DNA of 64,000 nucleotides from a virus. This document shows positions 4,193-61,533 of this stretch, piece by piece; position 1 is the first letter of the stretch, and every line of letters begins with the position of its first letter. A program made the translations under genes and the position numbers. The DNA lies in the IMG/VR virus record IMGVR_UViG_3300024260_000002, positions 1 to 64,000 of that record. One strand, written 5' to 3'. The notes under the pieces were generated by a model. It searched no databases. It saw only the letters and a program-made list of their open reading frames with translations, and was not told where the DNA came from.

Positions 4193-4266
4193 ATTCTAGA
4201 GTGGTGTGAGTGGTGTCAACCCTGACCTGGCAAAAACAATATATTATAAAACACAAAGGAAAGTAA

Positions 4267-4494: not shown

Positions 4495-4538
4495 TTATAA
4501 AGTTGGAGATACGAGTACTTCGAGTGTAAAGGATAAAT

Positions 4539-4667: not shown

Positions 4668-4670
4668 GTG

Positions 4671-5105: not shown

Positions 5106-5152
5106 AGATACCTAGTGTAAGAGTAAGAACTTGTGTCATAAAGGAGATATAT

Positions 5153-5389: not shown

Positions 5390-5417
5390 TATAGCAATAT
5401 GTGTAACTAAAGGATAA

Positions 5418-5942: not shown

Positions 5943-6298
5943 ATGAAATAACAATAGATGGAATAACATACGATATGGTAAAGAGAGATAGGCACCCTTG
6001 GCGAATGCCAAACATAAAAGAGCTACTAAGTGCAGTAGACTATGAGAAATGTGACCCTGCTACAAGTATGGAAGGATTTACTTCTAGGTTTTATTGGTCT
6101 TCTTCATCAAATGTTTCGGATTATAAGTATGCTTGGGGTGTAAACTTTAAGTATGGCTATTCCAGCTACTACCATAAGGCAAATGAGAATTATGTCTGGT
6201 GTGTTAGAACAGATGAAAATGGTACTCTTGTTTGGGGTAAATCAAGTGATTACCTAATGACTTGGGAAGATGCTCAAGAATGGTGTAAAAAACAATAA
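5939..6298 (+). CDS. DUF1566 / Lcl C-terminal-like domain protein (119 aa)
   Basis: The order WRMPNIKELLSAVDY, then RFYWSSSS, YAWGVNF and YVWCVRT is the DUF1566 pattern, a C-type-lectin-like fold. There is no signal peptide, so it is cytoplasmic or a virion part. The final segment MTWEDAQEWCKKQ normally stands before the WR-P-I-EL motif in this family, so the domain looks cut at an unusual point or is the remnant of a second repeat. Binding of a surface ligand or sugar is possible, but nothing here proves it. Confidence 0.7.
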   Translation: MNEITIDGITYDMVKRDRHPWRMPNIKELLSAVDYEKCDPATSMEGFTSRFYWSSSSNVSDYKYAWGVNFKYGYSSYYHKANENYVWCVRTDENGTLVWGKSSDYLMTWEDAQEWCKKQ

Positions 6299-6389
6299 AC
6301 AAAAGGTAAGTAATGCATAAACAAGATTTCTGGAAGATTATAAGATGAGTCATGGTCATTGTATCATGAGCAAATACTAAGGAGCAGAA

Positions 6390-7655
6390 ATGAAAAAGAT
6401 GCTAATCTTTGTCGATGCAAAAGGCAATAAAAATAAGTTCTATCAATTAGAAATGATTGGTGATACTGTTGAAGTTGAATATGGCCGAGTTGGTAGTAAT
6501 CCACAAAAACGATCATATTCTGGTGGTGAACGTACATTCAATAAAAAAATGAATGAGAAACTTAAAAAGGGTTATACCGAAAGTAAAGTTAACTTAGAAG
6601 TTATTGAAGAGATTACTGGAAGTAAAGGAAATATGTTAGATATTGCTATGGAGCAAATAACAACAGATGATATTTCTAAATTACTTATAGCTGAATTAGT
6701 AAAACAAAATATTCACAATATTACAAGTAATACAAAAATTAAATATGATATTGATACTGGTTATTTTAAAACAGCTCTTGGAATCATTACCCAAGAAGGT
6801 GTTGAAGAGGCGATTGAATTATTAACCGAAATTGAAACTTTTCAAGACAAAATGGGTAAACATTCAGATGCTGAGTACGATAAGTTTGTAAAACTTAATG
6901 AAAAGTATTTCAGTATAATTCCAACAAAAATTCAAAATCTTAGAGATTATAAAAACTTACTTATTACAAATGAGAAAGTGGAATCTCAGATGGATATTTG
7001 TACCGCTCTTTTAAATTCTTTGGATATTATTGAAGATGAGAAAGCTAAGATTAAAGCTAAAGATTCAGGAGAAACCATTATTTATGAGAAAGTATTTGAA
7101 GCAAGTGTTTTACATTTAACAGATAAAGTTGAATATAAAAGATTAGAAGATTATTTTCATGATTCTAAAAATAGAAGACATGGACATGGATCTTATAAGA
7201 TTAGTAATATTTTTAGAATAAGTCTTGGAGAAGAAGAAAAAAATTATAGAAATGATCTTGATAATCAAGAAGAACTTTTTCATGGTACGAAGGTTTCTAA
7301 TCTTTTAAGTATTCTTAAAAGTGGTTTACTGATGCCTAAATATTCCCCTGGTCAATCAACAGGTTATATGTTTGGTCAAGGTTTATACTTTGCTAGTCAA
7401 AGTACCAAAAGCTTAAATTATTGTGATGGTATGTATTGGAATAATTCTAAATCACAAGATAAGATTTATATGTTTGTTGCTGATATTGCAATGGGTAATT
7501 ATCAAGTACCAAGTTCAAGTCGAAGTAGAAAACCTGATGCAGGTTATGATTCATATTGGGCAAAACCTGGTAAATCCGGTATATCAAACGATGAAATGAT
7601 TATTTTTGAAAACAATCAAATTAAATTAAAGTATATTTTAGAGATTACAAAATGA
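6390..7655 (+). CDS. Poly(ADP-ribose) polymerase-like protein with WGR domain
   Basis: The first 75 residues form a WGR domain (motif YGRVG at 31-35, Tyr in place of Trp). A helical PARP regulatory domain and the ADP-ribosyltransferase domain follow. The catalytic triad is visible: His298 in LFHGT, Tyr333 in GLYFA and Glu402 in SNDEMIIF, the last matching the polymer-forming Glu of PARP1. It should transfer ADP-ribose from NAD+ to a protein or nucleic acid, and the WGR domain suggests activation by DNA ends. It has its own start after AAGGAG and stands before a gp47-like nuclease and recombination genes. Targets could be host or phage factors. Confidence 0.9.
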   Translation: MKKMLIFVDAKGNKNKFYQLEMIGDTVEVEYGRVGSNPQKRSYSGGERTFNKKMNEKLKKGYTESKVNLEVIEEITGSKGNMLDIAMEQITTDDISKLLIAELVKQNIHNITSNTKIKYDIDTGYFKTALGIITQEGVEEAIELLTEIETFQDKMGKHSDAEYDKFVKLNEKYFSIIPTKIQNLRDYKNLLITNEKVESQMDICTALLNSLDIIEDEKAKIKAKDSGETIIYEKVFEASVLHLTDKVEYKRLEDYFHDSKNRRHGHGSYKISNIFRISLGEEEKNYRNDLDNQEELFHGTKVSNLLSILKSGLLMPKYSPGQSTGYMFGQGLYFASQSTKSLNYCDGMYWNNSKSQDKIYMFVADIAMGNYQVPSSSRSRKPDAGYDSYWAKPGKSGISNDEMIIFENNQIKLKYILEITK

Positions 7656-7729
7656 TAAGTAAAATAGTATTTATTATACTTATTATAATCGGTTATTTAA
7701 ATTATGAAACGGGTTATTATGGGTTTTAG
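7652..7729 (+). CDS. Membrane microprotein (25 aa)
   Basis: An ATGA overlap joins it to the PARP gene. Most of its residues form one hydrophobic helix (KIVFIILIIIGYL). The overlap and composition support a real gene, but 25 residues is too short to be sure. Confidence 0.4.
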   Translation: MISKIVFIILIIIGYLNYETGYYGF

Positions 7730-7805
7730 AAACAATGCGCAATTTAGAAAAAGAAACAAAGTTGATTCAACAGAATCTACTCAAACACAAAATAAAGGAA
7801 ATATA

Positions 7806-9023
7806 ATGAATAAAGAAATCACAGGAATTGATGCTAACTTACCAGATGGTGTAGTAAAAGAATTATACAAAAGAATTGACAAGTATATTGAATATTTACC
7901 AGAAGATGAAAGATATTTTGCTAAGCAATTAATTATTTGGATTAGTGGTGATAACAGTGGAACAAGTTCTGTTAATACTGCAATCATTGAAAAGAGAAGT
8001 ATGTTTATGATCTTTATGGCAATTGGTAAAAGAAAACAATTTAATGTTGATAGTGATCCAAAATACATTATGTTATATAAAAAATATCAAACACATATGG
8101 AAGTAAAATATAGTTTACAGATTCCTTCTTGGCAAGAATTATCAGACTTTTATTCATATCCTGCAATGACTGCTGATATTTTTAAGGTTGAGATTAAAAA
8201 ACATGATGATGATATTCAAAGATTTGTGAAAGCAAGTCAGGTGGAAAAAGAGATTAATGATGTTCCTGACGCAGTATCTTTTATTCCAACACAAACAGAT
8301 GTTGATCGTCTTGGTAAAGTAAAGGACCGTGTAGTGAAAAATATTAGTGAAAATTATGAAAAATGTATAGAAGCAGCTGTTGATTTAGATATGGATACTT
8401 TTGGTTTTATGAAACCTGTTATTGAAGAATTTAAAGGTGATAAAGGCACCATGAATACTTTTCTAAAAGCATTAGATAATAAGAATCCTTTAAAGCTTTT
8501 CGAAGCGGCTACAAAACGTAAACCAAAAAGTGAAAAACTTAAAACTATTTTAGAGCAATATGTAGAATTTATTGATGATATGAAAAAAACTGATGAGGCG
8601 GCTGCACATACAGCTACTGATGAAGTTGCTGTTGATGTGTTTAAGGTGTTTAATGACGCTTCAAAATCACAATGTCATACTACACCTGATGTAGGTGCAA
8701 CTCGTGGAGATACTCAAAAAGTTCCTTTCGTTGCAAAAGAACTATTAATGTTAAATAAAGTAGAAATTGTTCAACATATTGATCAGATGATGTTAAAAAT
8801 TATAAATGATACTGTTTCAACATTTGGTGTTGAATTTGAGAGTTTCAATGATTATGAAAATGAAATTTTTAATGAAGCAATTGTTTCGTTGAAAAAACGT
8901 CACCAATTTGAAATATATGGTAGATGTCAATCTCTTCGTGAGATGATTGCACTATTAGATATTTATGTTAATAGACGCGGACATAATATGTTATCACATG
9001 TTATTGAAACTTACGAAGCTTAA
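7806..9023 (+). CDS. Hypothetical protein (405 aa)
   Basis: The family was not recognised. The frame is open from 7704, but the ATG at 7806 follows AAAGGA at good distance and avoids overlapping the membrane peptide. The protein is hydrophilic and helical, with no signal or membrane segment. It lies directly before the gp47-like nuclease gene, so a role in DNA replication or recombination is an inference from position only. Confidence 0.65.
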   Translation: MNKEITGIDANLPDGVVKELYKRIDKYIEYLPEDERYFAKQLIIWISGDNSGTSSVNTAIIEKRSMFMIFMAIGKRKQFNVDSDPKYIMLYKKYQTHMEVKYSLQIPSWQELSDFYSYPAMTADIFKVEIKKHDDDIQRFVKASQVEKEINDVPDAVSFIPTQTDVDRLGKVKDRVVKNISENYEKCIEAAVDLDMDTFGFMKPVIEEFKGDKGTMNTFLKALDNKNPLKLFEAATKRKPKSEKLKTILEQYVEFIDDMKKTDEAAAHTATDEVAVDVFKVFNDASKSQCHTTPDVGATRGDTQKVPFVAKELLMLNKVEIVQHIDQMMLKIINDTVSTFGVEFESFNDYENEIFNEAIVSLKKRHQFEIYGRCQSLREMIALLDIYVNRRGHNMLSHVIETYEA

Positions 9024-19829: not shown

Positions 19830-20567
19830 ATGGATTATCATAAATTAGATTTAGAGGTAGAACCATATTTTCAATCTGATGGTTTACGTGAAATTGTAAT
19901 GCTTCATACTATTGCAGATGAATCAATGGAAATAGCTGCAAAACATTTTGATGACGTAACAAAAGAAGTTATTAATATTCTTAAAATGTTTAGCTCAGAA
20001 AGTTGTTTAGTTGGTGGAGCAGTTAGAGATATAATTGCAGGATATGAAGAAAATGATTATGATTTTGTAACTGATACAGGTTATGATATTTTAACTGAAG
20101 TATTTGAAATGAATGGTTTTAAATGTATAGAGACAGGACTACAATTTTTAGTTCTAAATATTAGTAAGGATGGTATGAAGTATGAGATTGCAAATTTTAG
20201 AAAAGATGGAACATATACAGATGGTAGACGGCCTGATAGTGTTTCAATCGGGACTATTGATGACGATGCTAATAGGAGAGATTTCTCAATTGGCGCATTG
20301 TATTATAATCTTAAAACAGGTCATGTCTTAGACCCTACTGGTTTAGGTCTTTTAGATTTATCTAATAAGACCTTATGTTTTGTTGGTAACCCGGAAAACC
20401 GTTTAAATGAAGACCTTTTAAGAGTTTATAGATTTTATAGATTCATATGCAAAGGTTTTAAACCTGAAAGTAATTCATTAACTGCTGTTAGACGACACTT
20501 TAAATGTGCACAAAAAACGGTTGCACCTGAAAGAGTTAAAGATGAACTTGAGAAAATGGTTTTATGA
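19830..20567 (+). CDS. tRNA nucleotidyltransferase / CCA-adding enzyme (class II, head domains)
   Basis: Class II nucleotidyltransferase motifs are visible: CLVGGAVRD, the metal-binding DYDFVT, RRDFSIGALYYN, NEDLLRVYRFYRF and ERVKDELEKM. It adds CCA to tRNA 3' ends, or repairs them. At 245 residues it contains head and neck but lacks the long body and tail of bacterial enzymes. The ATG at 19830 has no ribosome binding site. The open frame reaches back to 19776, where an ATT follows AGGAG inside the palindrome, so the true start is uncertain. A phage CCA enzyme suggests phage tRNAs elsewhere or defence against tRNA cleavage. Confidence 0.85.
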   Translation: MDYHKLDLEVEPYFQSDGLREIVMLHTIADESMEIAAKHFDDVTKEVINILKMFSSESCLVGGAVRDIIAGYEENDYDFVTDTGYDILTEVFEMNGFKCIETGLQFLVLNISKDGMKYEIANFRKDGTYTDGRRPDSVSIGTIDDDANRRDFSIGALYYNLKTGHVLDPTGLGLLDLSNKTLCFVGNPENRLNEDLLRVYRFYRFICKGFKPESNSLTAVRRHFKCAQKTVAPERVKDELEKMVL

Positions 20568-20758
20568 AAGATGTAAAATATCTGGATTCTCCTTATCCAG
20601 AAACTTTTAAAAAAATATGTGAAAGCGCATTTAAAGATGGGTATGTTCCATGTACTGATCAACCAACTGTAAATTTTGGAACAAGCACTTTTTCTGATCA
20701 ACATATATTATTAGTTGAAAAAGAAATTAAAGAAGAAATTATAAAAAAAGGATTTTAA
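20564..20758 (+). CDS. Hypothetical protein (64 aa)
   Basis: Not recognised. It overlaps the preceding gene by 4 bases (ATGA) and abuts the next. It is a soluble protein with a helical end. Confidence 0.6.
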   Translation: MKDVKYLDSPYPETFKKICESAFKDGYVPCTDQPTVNFGTSTFSDQHILLVEKEIKEEIIKKGF

Positions 20759-20968
20759 ATGGCAAAAAGAGCGGTAAAATTAAAGCCTCAAACGGAGGCA
20801 AAGTTAAAAGAATTATTACATAAAATGCAAACATATAAAACAAAAGCTATGTCAAGTCTACAATCAGGTGACTTAGGTAAAGCAAGTTTAATGTTTAATT
20901 TAGATGCTAGAAATTCTGATGAAATAAGTGAATTGCTTAAAAAGGAAAATGATGGTAGTAACGGTTAA
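20759..20968 (+). CDS. Small helical basic protein (69 aa)
   Basis: Predicted all-helical with a basic N-terminal half (MAKRAVKLKPQTEAKLKELL). Not recognised. It follows AAAAAGGATTTTAA, which ends the previous gene. Confidence 0.6.
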   Translation: MAKRAVKLKPQTEAKLKELLHKMQTYKTKAMSSLQSGDLGKASLMFNLDARNSDEISELLKKENDGSNG

Positions 20969-21224
20969 ATATAAATGGAATAAAAATGAGATTACATTTA
21001 AAGCTTTTTCAAATGAAGTATCTGCTTTTAAATTTATGGATAAGATAGCAAATGATACATCATATTCAGAAGTTGCACCTTTAGTAGACTATTCAAATGT
21101 TGCAATATATAAAGAAAAATTTGAATTATTATTTCAAAGATTATTAGACCAAGCAGATAATGTTGCTAATGTAAATGTTAAAAGCAAAATCGAAAAAGAA
21201 GAACCAACAAAGAAAACATTTTAA
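20952..21224 (+). CDS. Hypothetical protein (90 aa)
   Basis: Two adjacent ATGs (20949, 20952) follow AAAGGA, and the second has the better spacing. The start lies inside the end of the previous gene. It is mixed alpha/beta with a charged C-terminus. Not recognised. Confidence 0.6.
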   Translation: MVVTVKYKWNKNEITFKAFSNEVSAFKFMDKIANDTSYSEVAPLVDYSNVAIYKEKFELLFQRLLDQADNVANVNVKSKIEKEEPTKKTF

Positions 21225-21234
21225 AGGAATTAAT

Positions 21235-21456
21235 ATGGTATTAAAGAACGTAAGTGAAGCAGAATATGAATTATATTACTGGCAATTTAGTGATGGTGAT
21301 AATTTTAGTACAAGATTATTTCAAGCAATATCAAAAGCTGATACAAGTAATTTGAATAAACTTGCTAAGGGTTTCCCAGAAGAAGTTGCAGTATATAGAA
21401 GATATGCAAATGACGATGGTTATTGGGATGATGTTCAAAAAAGAATCAAAGAGTAA
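21235..21456 (+). CDS. Hypothetical protein (73 aa)
   Basis: The ATG at 21235 follows AAAGGAATT and is preferred to the upstream frame start at 21175, which overlaps the previous gene. It is a small acidic protein with aromatic residues (YELYYWQFSDGDNF). Not recognised. Confidence 0.6.
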   Translation: MVLKNVSEAEYELYYWQFSDGDNFSTRLFQAISKADTSNLNKLAKGFPEEVAVYRRYANDDGYWDDVQKRIKE

Positions 21457-21458
21457 TT

Positions 21459-21608
21459 ATGAAAGCTATGGGAACAGATGAACAAGTGTTTGATAATAAA
21501 TACTATGATTGGACGGGTAACCAAGCGAGGCGTTCTCAAAGACTTCGTAATAAAAAATCGAAGAAAACAATTAGAAGATTAAAGGATAATAATGAAATTT
21601 ACATTTAA
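21459..21608 (+). CDS. Small basic protein (49 aa)
   Basis: The ATG directly follows the previous stop. The C-terminal half is strongly basic (ARRSQRLRNKKSKKTIRR), suggesting nucleic-acid binding. The gene overlaps the next by 17 bases and contains that gene's ribosome binding site. Confidence 0.5.
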   Translation: MKAMGTDEQVFDNKYYDWTGNQARRSQRLRNKKSKKTIRRLKDNNEIYI

Positions 21609-22974
21609 TAAAACAGAGTATACATTAATACTCTTAAATGTTGCAGGTAGTAGATTATATGGAAATGCAACTGAAAAATCTGATTACGATTACAGAGGTG
21701 TCTTTATAGCTGATAAGTCTATGCATATTTCATTAAATGAAAACGTAGAACAATTAGGTGGTAAGACTGGAAAAGGTGCATCAGGTGAACAATTATGTCA
21801 AGCACTTTTAGACGCTGGTATTAATATGAAATTTACAGATGATGTTGTTCTATATGAGATTAGAAGATTTATGGAGTTAGGATTGGATGCTAATCCTAAC
21901 ATAATGGATAGTATAAATTTTAATTATACAAATAAAGAGAATTGTATTTATATTAACGATGCAGGTCAAAAACTATTAGATAATCAAAGTTTGTTTATGA
22001 GTAAGAAACTCAAACATACATTCTCAGGTTATGCATTTGCACAATTAAAAAAGATTCAAAGTCATAATAAATGGATTACTGAATTTCCTGATACTAGTAA
22101 AGTTATCAAAATTTTAGAAGATGCTTTACATATAGACAAAGCAATTGATTTTGATTTTATTGTTCAAAACTTTGGTGGCCCTTTAGCAGAAGAAATTACA
22201 GGAGAAACAGCTCAAGAACATACTTCAATTAATGATAGTTATAGTTGGGACAATTTTGTTTTAAGTTATGAAACAATAGATTTTGATTTAAATAAATATA
22301 GACTTCCAAGACTTTATGATTATACAAAAGCTTTTGATTTAAAGGCTAAGCCTTTAAATAAAGATAAAAGTATTACATTAATAAATAGTTCTACTATAGT
22401 ACATACAACATCTACACCAAAAGAGTTATTGATGAGTACTGGTGGTTTTCGTGCAATTGGTGGTAGTATATATACTATTTTTGATATGATTGCAAATAAA
22501 CCTTTAGGTGGTGTTTATGATTTAAATGGAAACGTTAAAACTCATCCTCCAAAAGAAGTAGGGGATTTTAGATTCATTGCAATTTTTGATAAAAATGAAT
22601 ACAAGAAACATACTGATCATATTAATAATATGTGGCATTGGAAAATTAAGCGTAATAAATCAAGAGCTGTACTCGAAGATGAATTTGGTTATGATACCAA
22701 ACATGCTAGCCATTTAGTACGATTACTTTTAAGTGCGATGGACTTAATACAAACAGGTAAATTTGTACCTGAACTTAGTGGAGACACTTTGCAAATTGTA
22801 AAAGATACGAGAGCTGGTCTTTATACTTATGAAACTGTTTTAACAATGGCTAATGAGTATGAAACTAAATTGAATGATTATTATGCATCTAAAGATTGTC
22901 CTTTACCTGATAAGCCAAATAGAGTTGCAGCTGATAAATTATTGATTGATATGATAAATGAAAATAATAGATAA
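21592..22974 (+). CDS. Predicted nucleotidyltransferase (YcgL/COG3541-like)
   Basis: The N-terminal motif GSRLYGNATEKSDYDYRGVF is the G-S...D-x-D active site of DNA-polymerase-beta-type nucleotidyltransferases of the YcgL group. A long helical region follows. These proteins may transfer a nucleotide to an unknown acceptor; no substrate is established. The gene is close to the CCA-type nucleotidyltransferase and the HD-Pnk gene, suggesting a cluster for RNA end processing, but this is inference. The start follows AAAGGATAATA. Confidence 0.8.
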   Translation: MKFTFNKTEYTLILLNVAGSRLYGNATEKSDYDYRGVFIADKSMHISLNENVEQLGGKTGKGASGEQLCQALLDAGINMKFTDDVVLYEIRRFMELGLDANPNIMDSINFNYTNKENCIYINDAGQKLLDNQSLFMSKKLKHTFSGYAFAQLKKIQSHNKWITEFPDTSKVIKILEDALHIDKAIDFDFIVQNFGGPLAEEITGETAQEHTSINDSYSWDNFVLSYETIDFDLNKYRLPRLYDYTKAFDLKAKPLNKDKSITLINSSTIVHTTSTPKELLMSTGGFRAIGGSIYTIFDMIANKPLGGVYDLNGNVKTHPPKEVGDFRFIAIFDKNEYKKHTDHINNMWHWKIKRNKSRAVLEDEFGYDTKHASHLVRLLLSAMDLIQTGKFVPELSGDTLQIVKDTRAGLYTYETVLTMANEYETKLNDYYASKDCPLPDKPNRVAADKLLIDMINENNR

Positions 22975-29903: not shown

Positions 29904-32150
29904 ATGAGTAATGAATTAGAAAGAGAATTTACTTACCCAGGAAAAGAACTTAAAGAGATTGAGAAAACAGAAGAGCTTACTCGATTAGAGAAGTTCTTAT
30001 ATGATTCAAATGCAAGTTCTCTTTATATGGATGATGTTATTGATTTTAAACATGAACCAATGTTCCTCGGAACAGGTAAAAATACTCAAAGATTTGATGA
30101 TCCCAAATATGCATTTTTTGATAAATCAAATGATAAACAACAAGGTAATGATTGGAAACATAATGAAGTACCACTTGTTCAAGATCAAGCAGATTTTAAA
30201 ACATCATTAACTGATGCACAAAGATTTATAACTAGAGTTGATCATCAAAAATTAATATTTTTAGATTCAATTCAAGGTCGTGGACCATTATTAATTTTTG
30301 GACAAATCACAACTTTGCCTGAACTTGAAAATGTTATTCTTACATGGGAATATTTTGAAGGTGCAAAACATTCAAGAACTTACACGGAACATCTTAGAGC
30401 ATTCTATGATAAACCAGATGAGGTATTTGATGAAGCATTTCAACTTCCAGAGTTAAAAAAACTAGCTAAGAAGATTGGTGTAGTTTATGACATTGCTTAT
30501 TATAATGTAATTAATTATGTTTATAAAGATCAACGTGGTTTAGAATACACTCAACAAGAATACAAAGACTTAAAAGAAAGTATTGTTATGTTATGGGTTG
30601 AGATTAATATACTTGAAGGTATAAGATTTTATCCTGGTTTTGCTAGTATTTGGGGAATGACTGAATCAAAAAATATTTTTAGAGGTGTTTCTGAAAATTT
30701 ACAATTTATTTGTATGCATCCAGAAACTGACATATTGACAGATAAAGGTTGGAAAAAAGTAGAATTTTTATCATTAGATGATAATATTGCACAACAAGAT
30801 TTAGATACAGGTTTAGTGTCATTTGCTAAACCAACTAGAAAGATATGGAGAGAATATAAAGGAAAGATGCATAAAATCATAGATGCAACTGGAAAAACTA
30901 TTCAACATTTAACAGAAGATCATGAAATAGTTGTTAGTAGAAGAAATTCAAAAACAAAAGAATTAACAACAAAAAAAGTTAAAGTTCAAGATACAAAATT
31001 TAATAATTCAACATATTACCCACAAGGTGGAAAATTAGAAATCTCAAATGATGAATTTGCATTAAATACTTTAGAACAATTTAGAATCATGACAGCGGCT
31101 GATGGATATATTAATCCTCGCAGTAATGGTAAACAAACAGGATTTCAAGCAGTTAATTTTTCATTAAAAAAAGAACGAAAAATAGAATTATTCTTTCAAT
31201 ATTGTAATGAATTAGATTATAAAATAGTTGAAACAAAATCAATTAATGATGTTAGAATGTTTATAGTAAGTGTTCCTGTTGAAATTAATATATCTAAATC
31301 TTTAAATTGGATATGTTTAAATTCAAGCACTGATTATATAGATAGTATTTTAATGGAGTTAATTAAATGGGATGGTTCAGATAAAACAGAAGCTTCAAAT
31401 AATAAATATGCTTTTTTTACAAGCGATAAAGAAGTTGCTGATCAGGTAATTGCGTTAATTACTTTAAGTTCATATAAATCATTTAATTACAAACAAGTTA
31501 ATAAATCACAAGGACATTATAAAGATTCGTATAAAATATATTTTAGAGATGATGAAAAAATTATAAATACTCAAAAATATATTGATGATGTATATGATTA
31601 TGATGGAATGATTGGATGTGTGACTATGCCAAAAGGTACTATTATAACTAAATCGGTTGATAATAAGGTAACTACAACTGGAAACTGTCGCGATGAAAAT
31701 GAACATTTAGCATTAACTCAATTTATGTTAAAACTTCTAAAAAAAGAAAAAGAAGAAGGTTTTGTTGAAGTTTATAAAGAACTTGAACCTCGTATTGAAG
31801 CGAGATTTTATGAAGCTTATCATGAAGAATGTGATTGGATAGATTTTAAATTTAGTAAAGGTTCATACACTGGTATGAATGCTGCTATCCAAAAAATGTA
31901 TTTAAATTATATTACTATTCGTAGAATGCGTGCTGTTGGTTTAAATCCAACAAAAGAACGTCTTGGTGATATGTATATTATAAAGAATCCAATTCCATGG
32001 GTTGATAAATTTATCAACATGGACAAAAATGAAAAACTTCCACAGGAAGAAAAAGTTCTAAATTATATAACAGGTGCTGTTGAACAAGATGTTGCAAAAC
32101 ATAGCGAACTTGCTTGTGTTAAACGACTACTAAAACAATTTATAAAATAA
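29904..32150 (+). CDS. nrdB: Ribonucleotide reductase beta subunit NrdB with intein
   Basis: The extein parts make about 423 residues of a class I small subunit. Metal ligands are visible in LTWEYFEGAKHS (E and H), WVEINILEGIRFYPGF and RDENEHLAL (E and H). It houses the metal cofactor that oxidises NrdA for deoxynucleotide synthesis. An intein of 325 residues (270-594) interrupts it between QFI and CRDENEH, in the iron-ligand helix. Splicing is needed for activity. The nrdB gene precedes nrdA, the reverse of many operons. Confidence 0.9.
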   Translation: MSNELEREFTYPGKELKEIEKTEELTRLEKFLYDSNASSLYMDDVIDFKHEPMFLGTGKNTQRFDDPKYAFFDKSNDKQQGNDWKHNEVPLVQDQADFKTSLTDAQRFITRVDHQKLIFLDSIQGRGPLLIFGQITTLPELENVILTWEYFEGAKHSRTYTEHLRAFYDKPDEVFDEAFQLPELKKLAKKIGVVYDIAYYNVINYVYKDQRGLEYTQQEYKDLKESIVMLWVEINILEGIRFYPGFASIWGMTESKNIFRGVSENLQFICMHPETDILTDKGWKKVEFLSLDDNIAQQDLDTGLVSFAKPTRKIWREYKGKMHKIIDATGKTIQHLTEDHEIVVSRRNSKTKELTTKKVKVQDTKFNNSTYYPQGGKLEISNDEFALNTLEQFRIMTAADGYINPRSNGKQTGFQAVNFSLKKERKIELFFQYCNELDYKIVETKSINDVRMFIVSVPVEINISKSLNWICLNSSTDYIDSILMELIKWDGSDKTEASNNKYAFFTSDKEVADQVIALITLSSYKSFNYKQVNKSQGHYKDSYKIYFRDDEKIINTQKYIDDVYDYDGMIGCVTMPKGTIITKSVDNKVTTTGNCRDENEHLALTQFMLKLLKKEKEEGFVEVYKELEPRIEARFYEAYHEECDWIDFKFSKGSYTGMNAAIQKMYLNYITIRRMRAVGLNPTKERLGDMYIIKNPIPWVDKFINMDKNEKLPQEEKVLNYITGAVEQDVAKHSELACVKRLLKQFIK
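30711..31685 (+). mobile_element. Intein in NrdB
   Basis: The intein begins with Cys270 (block A CMHPETDILTDKGWKKV), has a block B-like HLTEDHEIVVS, and ends VTTTGN before extein Cys595. These are the required splice residues: Cys1, terminal Asn and Cys+1. The middle has MTAADGYIN and LIKWDGSD, weak LAGLIDADG-like motifs, so the homing nuclease may be degenerate while splicing is kept. The insertion lies within the metal-ligand segment, a conserved site typical for inteins. Confidence 0.9.
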
Positions 32151-32152
32151 TA

Positions 32153-32172
32153 GGTTAGAATCATTTCTAACC
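32153..32172 (+). terminator. Hairpin between nrdB and nrdA
   Basis: GGTTAGAA and TTCTAACC form an 8-bp stem around TCAT. No T-tract follows and the nrdA ribosome binding site is near, so it is more likely an mRNA-processing or translational element than a terminator. Confidence 0.45.
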
Positions 32173-32186
32173 CTAAAAGGAAATTA

Positions 32187-35100
32187 ATGATTAATATCAT
32201 AAAAGATGATGGTTCTAAAGAGGAATATAAGCCCGAGAAATCACAACAGCATTTAGGTTATGCTGTTGAAGGACTATCTAGGGTATCAATTTCAGAAATT
32301 GAAATGAGAGCTTCTCTTTCAATCGAAGATGGAACAACGTCAAAAGAAATTCAACAAGCATTGATTAAATCTTGTGCTGATCACATTAGTGAAGATGAAG
32401 ATGAATATCAAATTGCAGCTGCTAGATTGTTAAATCAAGATATTCGTAAAGATGTTTACAAGCAATATACTCCAAAATCATTTATTGAAATGATTGATAA
32501 AGGGTGCGATGCTGGTTATTATGATTCTGAATATTTATGGAAATATTACACAAGAGATGAAATTATTACTTATGGTAAATTAATTGATTATGACCGTGAT
32601 GACAATTTTGTATATTCAGGTTTAAAGAAAACAAAAGATTCTTATCTAGTTAAACAATTTGGTAAAATTCAAGAAACTCCTCAAGAGATGTTTCTATTAA
32701 TTAACATATTTGCATTTGCAAAGTACAAAGGTGCTTTAAGAGACAAATGGGTTAAAAATGGTTATGATATTTTATCTAACTTTGAAGCTAGTCTTCCTAC
32801 TCCTGTTATGATTCAAGTTCGATCGATGTTCAGAAAATATATTTCATGTTTTAGAGGAAATACTAAAATACGCATAGCTAATTTAGATTTTAAACTTATA
32901 CAGGACATTGTTATTGGTGATAAAGTTCAAACAATTCAAGGAAATCTTAAAGAAGTTGTTGCTATAAATATAAAAGAACATACAGATGAATTTATAACAA
33001 TTAATTCATCATATGGATTAAATGATGAATTTACATCAACTGATAATCATCCAATAAAAAGCATTTTATTTGATGATATAAAATGTATTAGAAACCAAAC
33101 TCCTAGTAATACTAAACCAATTTGCATAACTTCTCAAACTAAAGCAAAACATTGTTTAAAATCTAAAAATCATTATAAAAATGATTGTGAATTATTAAAT
33201 ACTGACTGGTCAACTATATCAAAATTTGTAGAAGCAAAAGATTTATCAATACATGATTATATCGCCATTCCTTTTGATAATAAGATAATATGCGATAATT
33301 TATTTGATATGAAAGATTTTATAAATGATGATAAATACAAATTAATAAATGGATATATAACAAAAGAGCATATTAAAGTTTTTAATTTAAATCGGTTAAT
33401 TAAAGTTGATGCAGATTTTATGTATATTCTTGGTTGGTTTGCTGCTGAAGGGTGTGTTGTAAATAATCATTTAAATTTCTCACTAAATATAAATGAGATG
33501 GATTATTTAATAGATATTAAAGATAAGATAAAACGAGTCTTTAATATAGAAGGTAAAATATATGATAATGGTGATAATTCCGTATCGTTGCAGGTTTCTC
33601 ATAAAATACTAGCAAATTTCTTTAATATTATATTAAATAATGCTAAGGAGAAAAGAGAAGGTTCTGTAATTCATGAAAAGATATTATACGCTGATTATGA
33701 ATCACAAAAATATTTTCTCAAAGGAATATTTCTAGGAGATGGGTTTTTAGCAAGTAATTATTTAGGATTAGATATTGTTGATAAGAGATTCATTGATTTT
33801 ACAAATCATTGTTTACTTAGAAATGGTTTTATTTCACAAAATAGTAAATATATAAATGCTGCTAACACTCAATGTTATAGAATTAATATTCGTTTTGGTT
33901 TAAATGCAGAATTTATAAAATTTGTAGATAAACGAACAGAAAATTTTAAAATTATTAAACAATTAGAAAATATTAATAATATAAAGTCTCCTAAAAATAT
34001 AGGATTTTTTCAAGAGAATATATTATATAGTAAAATTATTAATATTAAAAAATTTAAAGAGGTTGTTGAAGTCTATGATATTGAAGTTCAAGATGATCAT
34101 ACTTTTATAGCAAATGATTATGGTGTACATAATTGTAACTTAATTCATCCAGGCGATAGTAATACTACATTAGCAGAAGCTTCTAAAATTATTATGAAAC
34201 TTGTTGCTGCTGGTGCTGGTCTAGGAATCGGTAATACTGTTCGTGGATTAGATGCTGATATTGATAATGGTCGTTTATCACATACTGGTTGTTTACCAAT
34301 TTATAAGGGTTATGAAAAATTGACTAAAGCTTTTGTTCAACCATCACGAGATGGTTCAAGTACTGTTTACCATCCTTTCTTCCATGTTGAAATAGAATCA
34401 ATGATGGTATGGGGAAATGCTAAAGGTACTGAAGAAACACGTATTCGTGAGATGGATCATGCTATTACATTTAGTGCTCTCTTTTGGGAACGTTATGCTA
34501 ATGGTGAAGATATTACATTATTCTATTTAAATGATGTTAAAGATCTTGTTAACTTTATGGGTGATGATGAAAAATTCAAAGAGCTTTATGAAGGTTATGA
34601 GAAATCTGTTCCGGCTGAACGTAGAACAACTATTACAGCTGAAAGTATATTTGATACATTTGTAGATGAAAGACATTTACAATCTAGAGAATATACTGCT
34701 TTCTTGGATAATATTGGTAAACAAGGAATGTACAAAGTTCCTATTTTTATTAGTAATTTATGTACTGAAATAACTCAACCAATTTATCCTGTTCATGAAC
34801 AAGGACATAAAAGAAATATTAAATTCAATGATGCGGCTTCTGAAGAGAAGTATTGGGATCTACGAACTGAAGCATATTTCTATCCAGATAATGATGTTAA
34901 GCGTACAAGCTTTATGCGTCAAATGTCTGAGTTATATACTTTTGTTGATGCTGATCCTTTTGCGGAAGTAGATGAAGATAAAGTATATGATTACTTTACT
35001 AATCGTGGATTTCCAAACCTAGCAGAAGTTGGTGTTTGTATTCTAGGTGGTGTAAATATGGGTCATACTACTGATAAGCGTTTACCAATTGTAAGTGAAT

Positions 35101-35930
35101 ACTTAGTTCGTTTCTTAGAAGAGTTAATTGATATGGGGACATATGATGTACCTGAAGTTGAAAAAGCTGCTAAGATGCGTAGAACATTAGGTATTGGTTT
35201 CAGTGATATATTCCATTTAATGGCAATCAATAAAGTATTTTATAATACTAGAGAAGGTCGTCAATTTATTGCAAATAGAATTGAATTATGTACATATCAT
35301 ATGACAAGAACTTCTATGGAACTTGCGAAAGAGCGTGGAGCATGTTTACTATTTAAAGACACTAAGTACTCTGATGGTCTATTACCAATAGATACTTATA
35401 ACAAACATGTTGATGAACTTATTGGTAAAAATACCGAATTTGATATTGATTGGCCTTGGCTTCGTGAGCAAATTTTGAAATATGGAATGAGACATTCTAC
35501 ATTGACAGCTAATGCTCCATTTGGAAGTTCTTCAATGGTTTCAAATTCAACTCCAGGGATTGAACCTCCAAGAGGTTTACAAGTTTCTAAAAAAGGTGTT
35601 ACTAAATTAGTACCTGATATTAGAAGATTTGGTAAATATTATACAACTGCATGGAGTGATGATTTTAACAATATTGATTATTTTAAATTTATTGCTGTTG
35701 TTCAGAAATTTATGGATCAAACATTAAGTGTTAATCAATATCATAATATGATTAAAACTGATGGTAAGAAAAAGAAATCATTATTAATAGAAGAAATTTT
35801 AGTTGCTTGGTATTATGGTTTAAAAACATTATACTATTCAAATATTAGAAGTACTGATCAAGCTGATGGTGATGATGAAATTGAAGAAGAAGAAGATGAT
35901 GGTTGCGCAGGCGGCGGTTGTAAAGTATAG
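32187..35930 (+). CDS. nrdA: Ribonucleotide reductase alpha subunit NrdA with intein
   Basis: It has an N-terminal ATP-cone region and class I catalytic motifs: extein Cys650 (NLIHPGDS context, like E. coli Cys225), FISNLCTEITQ (Asn, Cys and Glu of the active site), NAPFGSSSMVSNSTPGIEP and the redox tail GCAGGGCKV. Extein length is about 818. A 429-residue intein (221-649) sits immediately before the active-site cysteine, so no activity is possible without splicing. With NrdB it reduces ribonucleotides to deoxyribonucleotides for phage DNA synthesis. Confidence 0.93.
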   Translation: MINIIKDDGSKEEYKPEKSQQHLGYAVEGLSRVSISEIEMRASLSIEDGTTSKEIQQALIKSCADHISEDEDEYQIAAARLLNQDIRKDVYKQYTPKSFIEMIDKGCDAGYYDSEYLWKYYTRDEIITYGKLIDYDRDDNFVYSGLKKTKDSYLVKQFGKIQETPQEMFLLINIFAFAKYKGALRDKWVKNGYDILSNFEASLPTPVMIQVRSMFRKYISCFRGNTKIRIANLDFKLIQDIVIGDKVQTIQGNLKEVVAINIKEHTDEFITINSSYGLNDEFTSTDNHPIKSILFDDIKCIRNQTPSNTKPICITSQTKAKHCLKSKNHYKNDCELLNTDWSTISKFVEAKDLSIHDYIAIPFDNKIICDNLFDMKDFINDDKYKLINGYITKEHIKVFNLNRLIKVDADFMYILGWFAAEGCVVNNHLNFSLNINEMDYLIDIKDKIKRVFNIEGKIYDNGDNSVSLQVSHKILANFFNIILNNAKEKREGSVIHEKILYADYESQKYFLKGIFLGDGFLASNYLGLDIVDKRFIDFTNHCLLRNGFISQNSKYINAANTQCYRINIRFGLNAEFIKFVDKRTENFKIIKQLENINNIKSPKNIGFFQENILYSKIINIKKFKEVVEVYDIEVQDDHTFIANDYGVHNCNLIHPGDSNTTLAEASKIIMKLVAAGAGLGIGNTVRGLDADIDNGRLSHTGCLPIYKGYEKLTKAFVQPSRDGSSTVYHPFFHVEIESMMVWGNAKGTEETRIREMDHAITFSALFWERYANGEDITLFYLNDVKDLVNFMGDDEKFKELYEGYEKSVPAERRTTITAESIFDTFVDERHLQSREYTAFLDNIGKQGMYKVPIFISNLCTEITQPIYPVHEQGHKRNIKFNDAASEEKYWDLRTEAYFYPDNDVKRTSFMRQMSELYTFVDADPFAEVDEDKVYDYFTNRGFPNLAEVGVCILGGVNMGHTTDKRLPIVSEYLVRFLEELIDMGTYDVPEVEKAAKMRRTLGIGFSDIFHLMAINKVFYNTREGRQFIANRIELCTYHMTRTSMELAKERGACLLFKDTKYSDGLLPIDTYNKHVDELIGKNTEFDIDWPWLREQILKYGMRHSTLTANAPFGSSSMVSNSTPGIEPPRGLQVSKKGVTKLVPDIRRFGKYYTTAWSDDFNNIDYFKFIAVVQKFMDQTLSVNQYHNMIKTDGKKKKSLLIEEILVAWYYGLKTLYYSNIRSTDQADGDDEIEEEEDDGCAGGGCKV
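32847..34133 (+). mobile_element. Homing intein in NrdA
   Basis: It starts at Cys221 (CFRGNTKIRI, then GDKVQTIQG) and ends FIANDYGVHN before extein Cys650. Block F reads VYDIEVQDDHTF. The two LAGLIDADG helices are YILGWFAAEGCV and FLKGIFLGDGFL, each with an acidic residue in place, so the endonuclease could be active. At 429 residues it is a full-size intein with DOD homing nuclease. Confidence 0.93.
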
Positions 35931-57208: not shown

Positions 57209-57266
57209 AAATCTCCTTTTTTTATTTAATATTTGTTGGCTTGTTTGAAATTAACCTCAAGGAAAT

Positions 57267-57294
57267 CTTAGAAAAGAAATTAATCTTTTCTAAG
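57267..57294 (-). terminator. Hairpin behind the small membrane protein gene
   Basis: CTTAGAAAAG and CTTTTCTAAG form a 10-bp stem around an 8-base loop, overlapping the gene end. In the leftward direction ATTTCCTTGAGG follows. It probably reduces read-through from the signalling operon into the wedge gene. Confidence 0.55.
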
Positions 57295-57612
57295 AGAATC
57301 TAGGGCACCACCTGAGAAGTAAAATCCTAAGATGGCTAATATAATCATACCTAAATTAAAAGCCGCTATAATCGCTATAATCGCTTTATAGTCTACACCT
57401 ATAGCATTAGCTGATAATGCTAATGATATTGCTATAACATATATTAACGAGAAGATTAAAGCTATTGAACGTTGCATTAATTTGAACGCTGTGTACTCGC
57501 TAAACATAAAATTAATTTGTTTGGTTTTTGTATCATCTGATATAGGAAGAGAGTTGATGAATTCAACTCTATCTGCTATATATTCTTTTGTTCCAAATAT
57601 TTTTCCTATCAT
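57280..57612 (-). CDS. Two-span membrane protein, holin-like (110 aa)
   Basis: An amphipathic N-terminus is followed by two hydrophobic helices (IALIFSLIYVIAISLALSA and AIIAIIAAFNLGMIILAILG), separated by a short turn, with a charged C-terminus (SLRKD). The size fits a holin or a holin-like 3TM protein, but membrane proteins of this size are not distinctive. It lies behind the outer-membrane barrel gene with a 12-base gap. Confidence 0.55.
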   Translation of the reverse strand: MIGKIFGTKEYIADRVEFINSLPISDDTKTKQINFMFSEYTAFKLMQRSIALIFSLIYVIAISLALSANAIGVDYKAIIAIIAAFNLGMIILAILGFYFSGGALDSLRKD

Positions 57613-57624
57613 TTATTTTCCTTC

Positions 57625-58791
57625 TTAAAATAATATATCTAATCTGATACAATATCTAAATGATTCATCATCTATTGGTGTAACACTGTTACCACCAGAT
57701 AATTTAGCATAATCTATTTGTTCGTATCTTCCGGTTACACCTAGTTTAATCTTTGGTGTAACATATATACCTGTATACACTTTAAAGGTATTTCCTAAAT
57801 TACCCCATGAGTAAGCATTTATATTTTCTAAATCGGTAGCATAACTTATCCAATGTTTAGAAGCATAAAAATACTCTGCACCGAAATAAGAATCTAATCT
57901 AAATATATTAGCATCAAAATCTTTCTTAGCTCCAACAAGAACACTATATCCAGTTCGTTTACCTTCATCGCTAAAGTTGATACCCGGACCTTCTAATGCT
58001 GTGCCAGTTGGTGATATTTCTGTACCATCAAAATCTGTAACAGATACCCCGGCTATACCATAATATACCATTCCTGATGTATCTCGATCATCATACTGAT
58101 AACCAACACCTGCGAAGTATAAATTTCCTAATGATTCTAATGTTTCTTCATCATATATCTTTTCATATATAATATTCGATACTGAAGCATTAATTCTAAA
58201 CGTATGTTTATCAATTACACTCTTTGTAAATAAATATCCTATATCACTTCCATTTCTAGAGTTTTCATATCTATCTTCTGGTAACTGGTAAATGTCATCT
58301 ATTCTGGCACCATAACCAAATTGTATTTTATGATTTTCATTTATATAATGGGTATAAAATACACCAGTCATATTAATATAATAAAATGTCATAAGAGCAT
58401 CGCTAAGTTTTAAACCAGCAGTACTATGTTCACTAAACACACCATTCTTAAAACTAAAATTACCAACGCTGATAATATCATCAGGTGTTATAAATATGTT
58501 TAAATCTAATTCACTAATTTCAAAATAATTCTCAGCTGGACGTATTTTATTATATGAACGAGAATATATCTCTGATCTACTTGTATAATTAATCGTACTA
58601 TTAATAGTAACATATTTATTAAATATGATGTCATTATAAGTATTCAATATTATTCTATGTCCTTCGGCTTCTATATCATTTCCTAGAACTGTTCCACTAC
58701 TACTGCCATACATAAACTCTAGTTTGTTAAAATTTTTAAGTTCTACCGCGTATAAGTTTAAACAGATTACTAATATCATTAAATATTTCAT
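57625..58791 (-). CDS. Outer-membrane beta-barrel protein
   Basis: A signal peptide (MKYLMILVICLNLYA) is followed by alternating amphipathic strands rich in Tyr, Asn and Gly, and the chain ends in LDILF, the terminal Phe recognised by the BAM machinery. At about 370 mature residues it should be a 14-18 strand barrel, perhaps a porin-like or DUF3373-like protein of Campylobacterota; that family match is uncertain. A phage-made barrel could block receptors for competing phages or alter permeability. It overlaps the upstream secreted-protein gene by 4 bases. Confidence 0.8.
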   Translation of the reverse strand: MKYLMILVICLNLYAVELKNFNKLEFMYGSSSGTVLGNDIEAEGHRIILNTYNDIIFNKYVTINSTINYTSRSEIYSRSYNKIRPAENYFEISELDLNIFITPDDIISVGNFSFKNGVFSEHSTAGLKLSDALMTFYYINMTGVFYTHYINENHKIQFGYGARIDDIYQLPEDRYENSRNGSDIGYLFTKSVIDKHTFRINASVSNIIYEKIYDEETLESLGNLYFAGVGYQYDDRDTSGMVYYGIAGVSVTDFDGTEISPTGTALEGPGINFSDEGKRTGYSVLVGAKKDFDANIFRLDSYFGAEYFYASKHWISYATDLENINAYSWGNLGNTFKVYTGIYVTPKIKLGVTGRYEQIDYAKLSGGNSVTPIDDESFRYCIRLDILF

Positions 58792-59057
58792 AATTTATCT
58801 CCTATCTCACGTGAGTGCTTATCAATATCAAACCCTTTTGAAATCAAGCATTGCCCTAAATAAAATTTATCAAAGTCACTTACTTTGCCGTCTGTATACT
58901 CATAAAGTTCATTCTTTTTAACTACCCTTTTCCATCCAGAGATACTTTTTATCTCGGGCGAAATTAGATACTTGTTAAAATATATTTGACAGGATTCAGC
59001 ATACACATGAGAAAATGATAGCATTATAATAATGCATATCTTTTTTATATTTTTCAT
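58788..59057 (-). CDS. Small secreted (periplasmic) protein (89 aa)
   Basis: A signal peptide (MKNIKKICIIIMLSFSHVYA) precedes a 69-residue mature part with two Cys (SCQIYF and GQCLISKG) that could form a disulphide. Not recognised. It starts directly behind the histidine kinase and overlaps the barrel gene, so it may be the sensor's ligand or a barrel partner. Confidence 0.7.
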   Translation of the reverse strand: MKNIKKICIIIMLSFSHVYAESCQIYFNKYLISPEIKSISGWKRVVKKNELYEYTDGKVSDFDKFYLGQCLISKGFDIDKHSREIGDKL

Positions 59058-60398
59058 TTACACTCCTATATATATTGCAGGGAAGATTATTTCGAATACT
59101 GTTCCGTTTCCGGATGTTTCACGAAGTTTTAAATCTCCTGCCTTTTCATTTAGTAACTCTTTATTTAAATAAAGACCTACACCTCTAACATTAACATCAG
59201 TTGGTTTTTTAAATATGTTTGCTAATTTATGTAAAGAGTCTAATATGTATCCTTTAGATTCGCGAATTACAAACTCACCTGATGAATCTTTACTTGAATA
59301 GTATGGTTTAAATATGTCTTCATATTTCTCTTTACTAAGAAGTAGACCAGTTGTTCTATCTCTTAATCCTACACCATTATCTATAATATATAAATGTAAA
59401 TCTTTAGTTACATTATTAAATTTAACTTGTGTGACAATTCTTGATGAGTTTGCTTCTAAAGAATTTCTAAAATGATTAGATACAATATTTAAAAGGTCAC
59501 CATTTTTTAATAGTCCATCTAATTTGTATTTTCCTAAATTGGGATCTATTTTGATATTAAAATTTGATTTTTTATATATGTTCATTGAGTTCACACTGTA
59601 CTCAATTATGTTTTTTAATGTTTTATTTCCCTTACTGTATTTCAAGTTTTTAAAATTACTCATACGCTGGAGAACATTATCTATTTGTTCTATACTAGAA
59701 TATAATTGACCGAAGTCGAAGAAGAATTTTTCATTACACTTACAATCATAAATGGGAGATAATGTGCTTTGCATTTCAATTTCTAACTTTCTAATATTAC
59801 CTTGAATAATAGCAACAGGTGTATTAAGTTCATGATGAATATTCTCCGTTAGGATTTGCATATTCTTTTCTCTTAATGTATTACTTGTACTCATCATATC
59901 TAAAATTTTTCGTTTTCTTAATTTATATTCTAAACCGAAGAAGACAAAGGTGTATATTAAAAATAATATAATATTTATATTTATATACCCCATAAAAATA
60001 TTGTCTATTAAAAGTTGTGTATTTGGAACTATATAAATTTGATAATCAGGAAATTCCATATATAAATTTAAATTATTAGTTAATGATAGTTCTTTACCAC
60101 TAAAAGATAACTCTGGTTTTAAATAGGATTCTCTTTGTAATATATTATTTTCTTGTAGAGTATAAGTTGAATTATTGACAAATCCTATTTCAGAACAAGT
60201 TGTAATAATACATAAATGTTGTAAATCAATTTCATCAAACTCTTCAATAATACTTATAATAGTAGAATTTATTCTATCCTTATATACTACATTTATTGTA
60301 TAAAAATTTTCAAATAGTACAGCATTCATAATAAATATATTTAATAAAAGATATAAACTATAACGTGTACACGTTTTAATATTGTCATGGGTATACAT
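59058..60398 (-). CDS. Membrane sensor histidine kinase
   Basis: Two transmembrane helices (about residues 13-32 and 138-156 of the chosen start) bracket a periplasmic domain with two Cys. The cytoplasmic part has the H-box ENIHHELNTPVA (second His is the expected phospho-acceptor), N-box SNHFRNSLEANS, G1 IDNGVGL and G2 RGVGLYLNKEL. It should autophosphorylate and pass phosphate to the receiver encoded just upstream. The ATG at 60398 overlaps that gene's stop and follows GGAG; an ATG at 60410 is possible. Histidine kinases are rare in phages. Confidence 0.92.
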   Translation of the reverse strand: MYTHDNIKTCTRYSLYLLLNIFIMNAVLFENFYTINVVYKDRINSTIISIIEEFDEIDLQHLCIITTCSEIGFVNNSTYTLQENNILQRESYLKPELSFSGKELSLTNNLNLYMEFPDYQIYIVPNTQLLIDNIFMGYININIILFLIYTFVFFGLEYKLRKRKILDMMSTSNTLREKNMQILTENIHHELNTPVAIIQGNIRKLEIEMQSTLSPIYDCKCNEKFFFDFGQLYSSIEQIDNVLQRMSNFKNLKYSKGNKTLKNIIEYSVNSMNIYKKSNFNIKIDPNLGKYKLDGLLKNGDLLNIVSNHFRNSLEANSSRIVTQVKFNNVTKDLHLYIIDNGVGLRDRTTGLLLSKEKYEDIFKPYYSSKDSSGEFVIRESKGYILDSLHKLANIFKKPTDVNVRGVGLYLNKELLNEKAGDLKLRETSGNGTVFEIIFPAIYIGV

Positions 60399-61069
60399 TA
60401 TATCTCCCATTTTTGCTGAGTGTAATACTCTTCTATTAAATCTCCATACGCTGAAACTCTATTACCATTTTTATTAATAATATGTTTATACATTTCAATC
60501 TCTTCACCTTTGTAAACTAACTTTTTAGTTTCATCTATTGGTGTTTGGAAAAACTCTTCAAATTTTTGAATGAATTCAAAAATTTCAGGATTATATTTAT
60601 TTAATGTGTGCCCTGTTATAAATTTAATTAAGCACTTTGGATTATGTTGTTTTAACATGATGGCTACATCGATGCCATCATATTCAATATTATTAATTAC
60701 ACCACCAAGTGTGATATCTAGAATTCCAACATCTACTGTTTTATCAGGATCTTTAAGATATTTTTCTACTGTAAATCCAGCATAGTTGCCAGTTGCCATC
60801 ATAATATTAAATTCTTTATATACATCACAATATTGAACTCTACTAAGCTCGTCTTTAATTAATTCAGCCATTCCAGTAAAATCATCCATTATAAGAATAT
60901 TTGGATTTCCTTCTATTTCTGGTTGACAGAAAAACATTTCAGGAACTTTGATACTATATTCTGCAGGTTTTAATTCTGCAGGTGTAATATATTCATCATT
61001 GAATTTCATTTTCTTTTTACGTGATTTAAAAGGGTTAATTGTTTGTATTATAGTAAGAATCTTATTCAT
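60398..61069 (-). CDS. Response-regulator receiver protein
   Basis: After a basic N-terminal extension of about 55 residues, a receiver domain follows: NILIMDDFTG (Asp62, Asp63), VDVGILDIT (Asp118 as phospho-acceptor) and KFITGHT (Thr152). The usual Lys-Pro of the last loop appears as QTP (about 175-177), so the Lys may be missing. No helix-turn-helix output domain is seen. The last 40 residues are helical. It is therefore a single-domain or atypical regulator. It overlaps the histidine kinase gene (TAATG) and the upstream membrane gene (ATGA). Confidence 0.88.
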   Translation of the reverse strand: MNKILTIIQTINPFKSRKKKMKFNDEYITPAELKPAEYSIKVPEMFFCQPEIEGNPNILIMDDFTGMAELIKDELSRVQYCDVYKEFNIMMATGNYAGFTVEKYLKDPDKTVDVGILDITLGGVINNIEYDGIDVAIMLKQHNPKCLIKFITGHTLNKYNPEIFEFIQKFEEFFQTPIDETKKLVYKGEEIEMYKHIINKNGNRVSAYGDLIEEYYTQQKWEI

Positions 61070-61533
61070 TTCGTTTCCTTTATAACATCAGCTGTCTCAT
61101 TTATAACTCTGATTAAACTTTCATTAATTGCTCTGTATGCTCCAGGATCAATTTCATAAATAGTAACAAGTACCATTACAATTACTACCCAAGTAAATAA
61201 AACTCGTTTAGCATTTTCCCATGTTAACATTTCATATAATCTTTGTGTCCATGGTAAGTACTTTTTTCTTTCATTAATCATTTTATTAACAGTTGTTGAT
61301 TTAATTGTTAATGCTTTATCTAAAAGAATAAGCATTTGTTTTTTATCTGATTTATTTGTCATATTAAATTCATTATATATTAGTACAAATAATTCATATG
61401 TCTCAGGGGATACTTTTTTTACTTCAAAAAATTTGCCCATAAGATCTTGTTTTTCATCATCAGAATTTTTATAGTTCAGTATATCAATTCTTAATTCTTC
61501 TAATTTATTACTTAATGTAATATAATCTTCCAT
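61066..61533 (-). CDS. One-span membrane protein (155 aa)
   Basis: Residues 1-100 are helical and soluble, then one hydrophobic helix (VLFTWVVIVMVLVTIYEI) and a short outer tail follow. Not recognised. It overlaps the receiver gene by 4 bases, so it belongs to the signalling operon and may anchor the receiver at the membrane. It starts after AAAGGAGAG. Confidence 0.65.
   Translation of the reverse strand: MEDYITLSNKLEELRIDILNYKNSDDEKQDLMGKFFEVKKVSPETYELFVLIYNEFNMTNKSDKKQMLILLDKALTIKSTTVNKMINERKKYLPWTQRLYEMLTWENAKRVLFTWVVIVMVLVTIYEIDPGAYRAINESLIRVINETADVIKETK

Follow-up and report, generated by a model that had tools for sequence, protein, structure and literature searches.

Evidence for a mostly virus-borne two-component module with a membrane histidine kinase and a stand-alone receiver in uncultured phages

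Bacterial two-component systems of the HisKA type, such as HK853, CpxA, ZraS and FixL with CheY-like receivers, show a DHp-CA architecture, phospho-His and phospho-Asp residues and adjacent genes, and these features recur in a gene cassette of the virus record IMGVR_UViG_3300024260_000002 (181,622 bp), at positions 57625-61533 of its first 64 kb, which is the stretch analysed here and is called the window. The cassette contains, in order on the minus strand, the genes of a membrane protein (TM), a receiver (RR), a sensor histidine kinase (HK), a small exported protein (SEC) and a probable outer-membrane barrel (BAR). It differs from the bacterial systems in that the module is virus-borne, the receiver has no output domain, a gene for a tail-anchored protein is located upstream and there is an SEC/BAR arm.

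Most of what is known of phage lysis timing and of the sensing of superinfection comes from a small number of phages such as T4, N4 and a cholera phage. Lysis inhibition in T4 involves the holin T, the periplasmic RI and the cytoplasmic RIII, and acts by direct antiholin binding (PMC8385771). The likeness is that the phage of the window would also gauge the periplasm and set lysis, and it has homologs of rIIA and rIIB; the difference is that T4 uses no phosphotransfer, and the genetic likeness is limited to rIIA and rIIB, no search having been made for T, RI and RIII. Predicted kinases of uncultured Caudovirales and giant viruses in BFVD share the kinase fold (E-values down to 2.7e-11), and a phage kinase by itself is thus no novelty; these are single annotated proteins, with low template modelling scores over the query (about 0.24-0.31 for the 20 best). 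Detocs, a bacterial anti-phage phosphorelay, is alike in being a phosphorelay tied to phage infection, and its domain make-up is unlike that of the module; HK has no match in PADLOC 2.0.0, a release that may lack Detocs. In another source, cREC is a divergent receiver of jumbo phages, tied to NAD/ADPr enzymes and never found in histidine-kinase systems (PMC7824862); the common trait is a receiver-like domain in large phages, and the difference is that the receiver of the module adjoins a kinase. No description of the module was found in the open literature, most subscription papers and bioRxiv being outside the search, in agreement with the initial annotation, made from the window alone, which had proposed an undescribed system. 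Judged by its chemistry residues and fold, the module appears to be a two-component system that is new in its carrier (a virus), its partner genes and its probable output.

The kinase and receiver pair

The identity of HK and RR as a two-component system is near certain. The five leftward genes of the initial annotation were all verified as open reading frames (ORFs) of the minus strand:

61066..61533, minus strand: TM, 155 aa, tail-anchored single-span membrane protein, assigned by hydropathy and a family hidden Markov model (HMM)
60398..61069, minus strand: RR, 223 aa, stand-alone receiver with an N-terminal extension and without output domain
59058..60410, minus strand: HK, 450 aa, membrane sensor histidine kinase (446 aa from the ATG at 60398)
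58788..59057, minus strand: SEC, 89 aa, small exported protein with a hydrophobic N-terminus and a GW-x-R core
57625..58791, minus strand: BAR, 388 aa, exported, DUF3373-like, probable outer-membrane beta-barrel with C-terminal Phe

TM and RR overlap by 4 bases, as do SEC and BAR, and HK and SEC abut, as the initial annotation described; its range of 1-4 bases holds for RR and HK if translation starts at the ATG at 60398 (1 base) and not if the first ATG is used (13 bases). GGGAGA is found directly upstream of the ATG at 60398, which is the likely start of HK.

HK of the window passes the Pfam cut-off for HATPase_c (30.0 bits, cut-off 26.4) and is below that for HisKA (19.3 bits, cut-off 26.9). 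Its H, N, G1 and G2 boxes are intact (H193, N312/N316, D344-N-G-x-G and G410-x-G). In an alignment without L033 and L040, all 24 kinases have the phospho-accepting H193 (relatives are referred to by locus labels of this kind), N312, N316 and D344 are present in all 23 kinases with sequence reaching there, and G346/G348 in 22 of these 23, the exception being L010, which shows a gap. Kinases in the PDB are matched at an E-value of 1e-15, and a structure predicted from 24 sequences (predicted local distance difference test score, pLDDT, 80.3; predicted template modelling score 0.54) has its best match among solved structures, with a Z of 17.0, to histidine kinases. Two membrane spans are predicted in 20 of 24 kinases; the first span of the window protein scores 1.53, slightly under the threshold of 1.6. 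The loop between the spans contains a C-x4-C pair in 16 of 24 kinases, and its length is at least 94 residues in cassettes with SEC (9 of 9 measured) and 28-117 residues in those without it (12 measured). PF02518 matches two proteins of the record, the kinase and rIIA.

RR shows the acidic pair D62/D63, the phospho-acceptor D118, T152 and K200. D62, D63 and D118 are kept in 23 of 23 receivers (L033 and L040 are outside this count), Thr or Ser is present at position 152 in 23/23 and K200 in 21/23, and the receivers range from 188 to 283 aa. All 11 matches of the family profile to the PDB at E<=0.1 are receivers, the best of them CheY (E 0.0014). A single protein of the record matches PF00072, so that RR is the sole receiver of such kind there, and no NCBIfam model is above its cut-off for HK or RR of the window. 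The intact kinase boxes, together with H193 and D118 kept in all the sequences aligned, bear out the complete phage-encoded sensor-regulator pair that the initial annotation had recognised.

No DNA-binding or other output domain was found beyond the receiver of the window RR in Pfam, PHROGs or NCBIfam, and a transcriptional two-component system was excluded on this domain content. The N-termini of the receivers are enriched in aromatic (p 9e-6) and hydrophobic (p 5e-5) residues relative to the other long ORFs of the loci and could be a membrane-contacting segment.

Cysteine clusters were observed in the DHp hairpin of HK alone in 11 cassettes, in the N-terminal extension of RR alone in seven, in both in one and in neither in four (n=23; Fisher p 0.008, in a post hoc test on related sequences); a metal site that has shifted from one of the two proteins to the other could explain them.

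Relatives, core genes and accessory genes

HK and RR of the window gave zero tblastn matches in 50,697 phage records, single-sequence patterns of HK found no relative in 2.9 million viral contigs, and the tail sheath of the window had no match by tblastn. Scanning with a pattern of the tail sheath retrieved a single viral contig of 272,602 bp, with a sheath 37% identical, which shows the order one-span protein, receiver and kinase. An alignment of two kinases retrieved 12 loci, one of them this contig, an alignment of 13 kinases retrieved 22, including the 12, and a receiver alignment retrieved 12 loci with two new contigs; further viral scans with the kinases of L028/L040 and L022/L023 gave no additional contig. 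RR and HK of L009 had no match in the phage records, and neither RR of L009 nor BAR of the window had one in plasmids. The kinase of a relative, L003, matched 14 phage records by tblastn, several of which are pieces of Salmonella draft genomes by title; none reached at least 80% coverage (best E 3e-4) and these matches were dropped.

Besides the window, the resulting set of 26 cassettes includes 24 viral contigs and L018, a contig of 5,790 bp from a Cloacimonadota metagenome-assembled genome. L018 was the sole match when 84,980 prokaryote species were scanned with patterns, a scan which relies on short conserved peptides and which distant bacterial relatives would escape; since one protein of L018 belongs to the viral family phrog_3668 (E 5e-24), this contig may come from a virus and have been placed in that genome by binning. 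HK identity to the window protein is 22-49% across the phages. The initial annotation had asked for the same gene order in other phage genomes, and the 26 cassettes show it with the motif residues kept, which shows that the observation is not due to chance. Because the catalytic residues are kept and the phage and prokaryote scans are near empty, we are highly confident that this is a dedicated, mostly virus-borne system.

By HMM at E<=0.001, RR and HK were each found in 25 of the 26 cassettes, TM in 21, SEC in 11 and BAR in nine. RR and HK are adjacent in 24/26, and the remaining two are cut by contig ends, L013 before RR and L033 before HK. L005, L026 and L027 show a one-span protein in the place of TM that is outside the reach of the HMM, and L019 has no evident TM. 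All five genes are present in nine cassettes: the window, L006, L009, L010 (with the barrel split over two frames), L011, L020, L025, L028 and L040; thus SEC accompanies BAR in 9/9. The final HMMs were built from members already found and most of these recoveries are by construction. Earlier HMMs, with seeds from the window and L005-L016, recovered as non-seeds TM in L010, L015, L018, L020-L025 and L028 (L024 only at E 0.0018), RR in L018-L028, SEC in L019, L020, L025 and L028, and BAR in L020, L025 and L028; L033 and L040, which are in no HMM, were recovered too. Of the five-gene set initially proposed, the TM-RR-HK part is therefore conserved and SEC (11/26) and BAR (9/26) are accessory. The sequences thus show three core proteins, namely the tail-anchored membrane protein, the receiver that has no output domain and the membrane kinase, while SEC and a barrel-like protein make up an accessory arm.

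Two cassettes show additional ORFs. In L008, two receiver-like proteins (135 and 143 aa, identified by eye, 7388-8192) directly follow the kinase, where SEC and BAR would be; in L012, RR and HK are separated by a protein of 198 aa whose two ends are hydrophobic and by an ORF of 101 aa on the opposite strand (4584-5541).

Pairwise identities of HK correlate with those of RR (r=0.88, n=21) and of TM (r=0.79, n=17), and 0 of 2000 permutations were as high in either case. This bears on a takeover of the host by cross-talk, in which the pair would feed or drain the phosphate of host two-component systems or, with RR as a CheY mimic, act on the flagellar motor. RR is stand-alone and its best-scoring solved relatives are CheY proteins, as such a role would have it; however, HK and RR co-evolve and are carried together, which speaks for a private pathway, and TM has no counterpart in the scheme. 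We regard cross-talk as improbable.

TM shows about 110 residues predicted to be cytoplasmic by hydropathy, a span at 111-129 and a short C-terminal tail. At E<=0.01 no Pfam or PHROG family matches the window protein, and it was rejected as a histidine phosphotransfer protein, for it contains no His. A small membrane protein gene beside a sensor pair, in a module found at varying genome positions, would also suit a virus-borne defence against competing phages, in which TM would be an effector that damages the membrane under control of the kinase pair, as in anti-phage signalling systems. This is very unlikely in our judgement: at E<=0.1, the window's HK, SEC, BAR and TM match none of the PADLOC models, and RR matches only SspD (E 0.0042).

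The initial annotation had described SEC as a secreted protein with two cysteines. The exported type stands, and the cysteines, which vary among relatives, were discarded as a conserved feature; the conserved core is GW-x-R, with W42 and R44 invariant in 10/10. The predicted structure of SEC is helical (pLDDT 77.1) and has no match in the PDB at E<=0.001.

BAR of the window scores 39.4 bits and that of L006 27.3 bits against DUF3373 (PF11853, cut-off 26.1), a bacterial family of unknown function; six other barrels scanned had no match to it. The N-terminus is of the export type, the C-terminal residue is Phe in 8/9 and Tyr in 1/9, and the strand-alternation score is above 95% of the other ORFs in 3/8 (the window BAR is above 92%). 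The outer-membrane barrel of the initial annotation is thus a probable, putative reading of BAR.

Two uses of this arm can be weighed here. BAR and SEC might occupy or alter the outer membrane and block other phages, with a kinase pair that merely regulates them; both are of the exported type and coupled to HK, and every cassette with BAR has SEC. The absence of BAR by HMM from 17/26 cassettes (some cut by contig ends) that keep the core argues that the core works without it, and RR has no DNA-binding domain for regulating the two genes, which leaves superinfection exclusion a rather poor candidate. In an auxiliary metabolic use, the barrel would be a porin for a scarce nutrient which the kinase senses, prolonging host growth. 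The scores of BAR of the window and of L006 over the DUF3373 cut-off speak for it. We nevertheless give this very little credit: no linked transport or metabolic gene was recognised beside the cassettes read, a ribonucleotide reductase is near L008 only, and the core occurs without the barrel.

Genomic surroundings and membrane output

The surroundings of the cassette vary widely among relatives and the location among tail genes is not conserved, contrary to the initial annotation, which had given meaning to a place inside the morphogenesis arm. Neighbour names come from reading translations and were not all checked. They include neck and terminase genes (L005), a ribonucleotide reductase (among relatives, L008), DNA polymerase (L013 and L014) and tail-fibre-like genes (L012 and L024). 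In four related phages, L009, L010, L011 and L014, a divergent gene for a ClpX-like AAA protein (by eye) is located upstream, beside the cassette, and L033 shows two similar ORFs with short leucine-rich-type repeats near it (2182-2748 and 4144-4713).

Holin or spanin genes abut four of the 26 cassettes in three arrangements, upstream in three and downstream in one. L022 and L023 have a PF11351 holin upstream (E 3e-14 and 4e-12). L028 shows downstream a two-span protein, then Rz-like and Rz1-like proteins and an endolysin (E 1e-26), and L040 has Rz-like and Rz1-like proteins upstream. The two-span proteins beside these spanins (104/105 aa) are 67% identical between L028 and L040, and a holin is our guess for them. 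Near the cassette of L016 there is a weak Rz1-like match (E 0.014). Family scans covered chosen genes of L016, L018, L022, L023, L025 and L028, plus L040; the rest were judged by eye.

The window itself shows the following downstream of BAR:

57280..57612, minus strand: two-span membrane protein of 110 aa with two hydrophobic spans, phrog_9646 (function unknown), E 2.7e-11
57266..57295, minus strand: terminator-like hairpin of 12 pairs where the 110-aa gene ends

The 110-aa gene starts 12 bases past BAR and is perhaps in the same transcription unit; a PF11351-type holin is not supported for it, since hhalign gives no relation to PF11351 holins. The hairpin is a possible end of the unit, with one terminator-like hairpin found against a shuffle mean of 0.9, which is statistically weak. 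The window and the next 19 kb also encode the tail sheath, tail-tube-like and baseplate-like proteins, ribonucleotide reductase, rIIA and rIIB. The ribonucleotide reductase subunits (748 and 1247 aa, 29904-35930) show family matches in pieces that lie apart, as inteins or other inserts would cause, and tRNA-nucleotidyltransferase-like genes are present at 19830-22974, yet ARAGORN found zero tRNA in the window.

An output at the membrane, and not by transcription, is the likelier mode of action, because RR has no output domain, TM is a steady and co-inherited partner and the RR N-termini are rich in aromatic residues. The module probably lets the phage sense the envelope state of the infected cell. 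By analogy with the protein families, the kinase would detect a signal on the periplasmic side of the inner membrane, with the SEC/BAR arm as intermediary in some of the phages, HK would autophosphorylate at H193 and the phosphate would pass to D118 of RR. The output might then be a protein contact at the inner membrane, and this contact might set the time of lysis, as a delay or a trigger, by envelope state or superinfection. Lysis timing, which the initial annotation had put forward, is favoured as the output because of the holin and spanin genes abutting L022, L023, L028 and L040; these suggest it, and we propose it tentatively and with considerable doubt. A two-component module with membrane output, most likely for lysis timing, is as a whole an explanation that we hold with somewhat less than even confidence. 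The most complete form of it, a viral phosphorelay in which barrel, SEC linker and membrane kinase are a trans-envelope sense organ and RR with TM is a membrane-bound switch that decides lysis, replacing the direct antiholin logic of T4, is unlikely.

Several results count against this explanation. RR of the window scores 21.2 bits against Pfam Response_reg (PF00072), under the curated cut-off of 30.2, and the receivers of L009 and L020 have no match to it at E<=0.01. A uniform amphipathic helix in RR was rejected, the hydrophobic moment being over the 95% point of other ORFs in 5/23 receivers and at the 48th percentile in the window. The kinase of L010 has no G1 stretch (5986-7194) and its barrel is split over two frames (7469-8602), by decay or assembly errors, so that at least one copy of the module may be decayed. 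Most other cassettes show no lysis gene nearby, their neighbours being mostly judged by eye. The probability of at least 4/26 is 0.039 at an assumed rate of 5% per cassette, which is borderline, and 0.127, not significant, if the related L022 and L023 are counted once; the lysis linkage may therefore be chance. In the record of the window, the lysozyme family PF00959 has no match, nor has PF05838, whose control was equally silent. The module is known from genes of uncultured phages alone.

The module adds a receiver family that the Pfam model does not call, and its small operon is testable in a laboratory host. A sensor kinase system that is conserved and dedicated to viruses would demonstrate that phages conduct signal transduction for themselves, and envelope sensing by a phage kinase, if true, would be a new way of phage decision-making.

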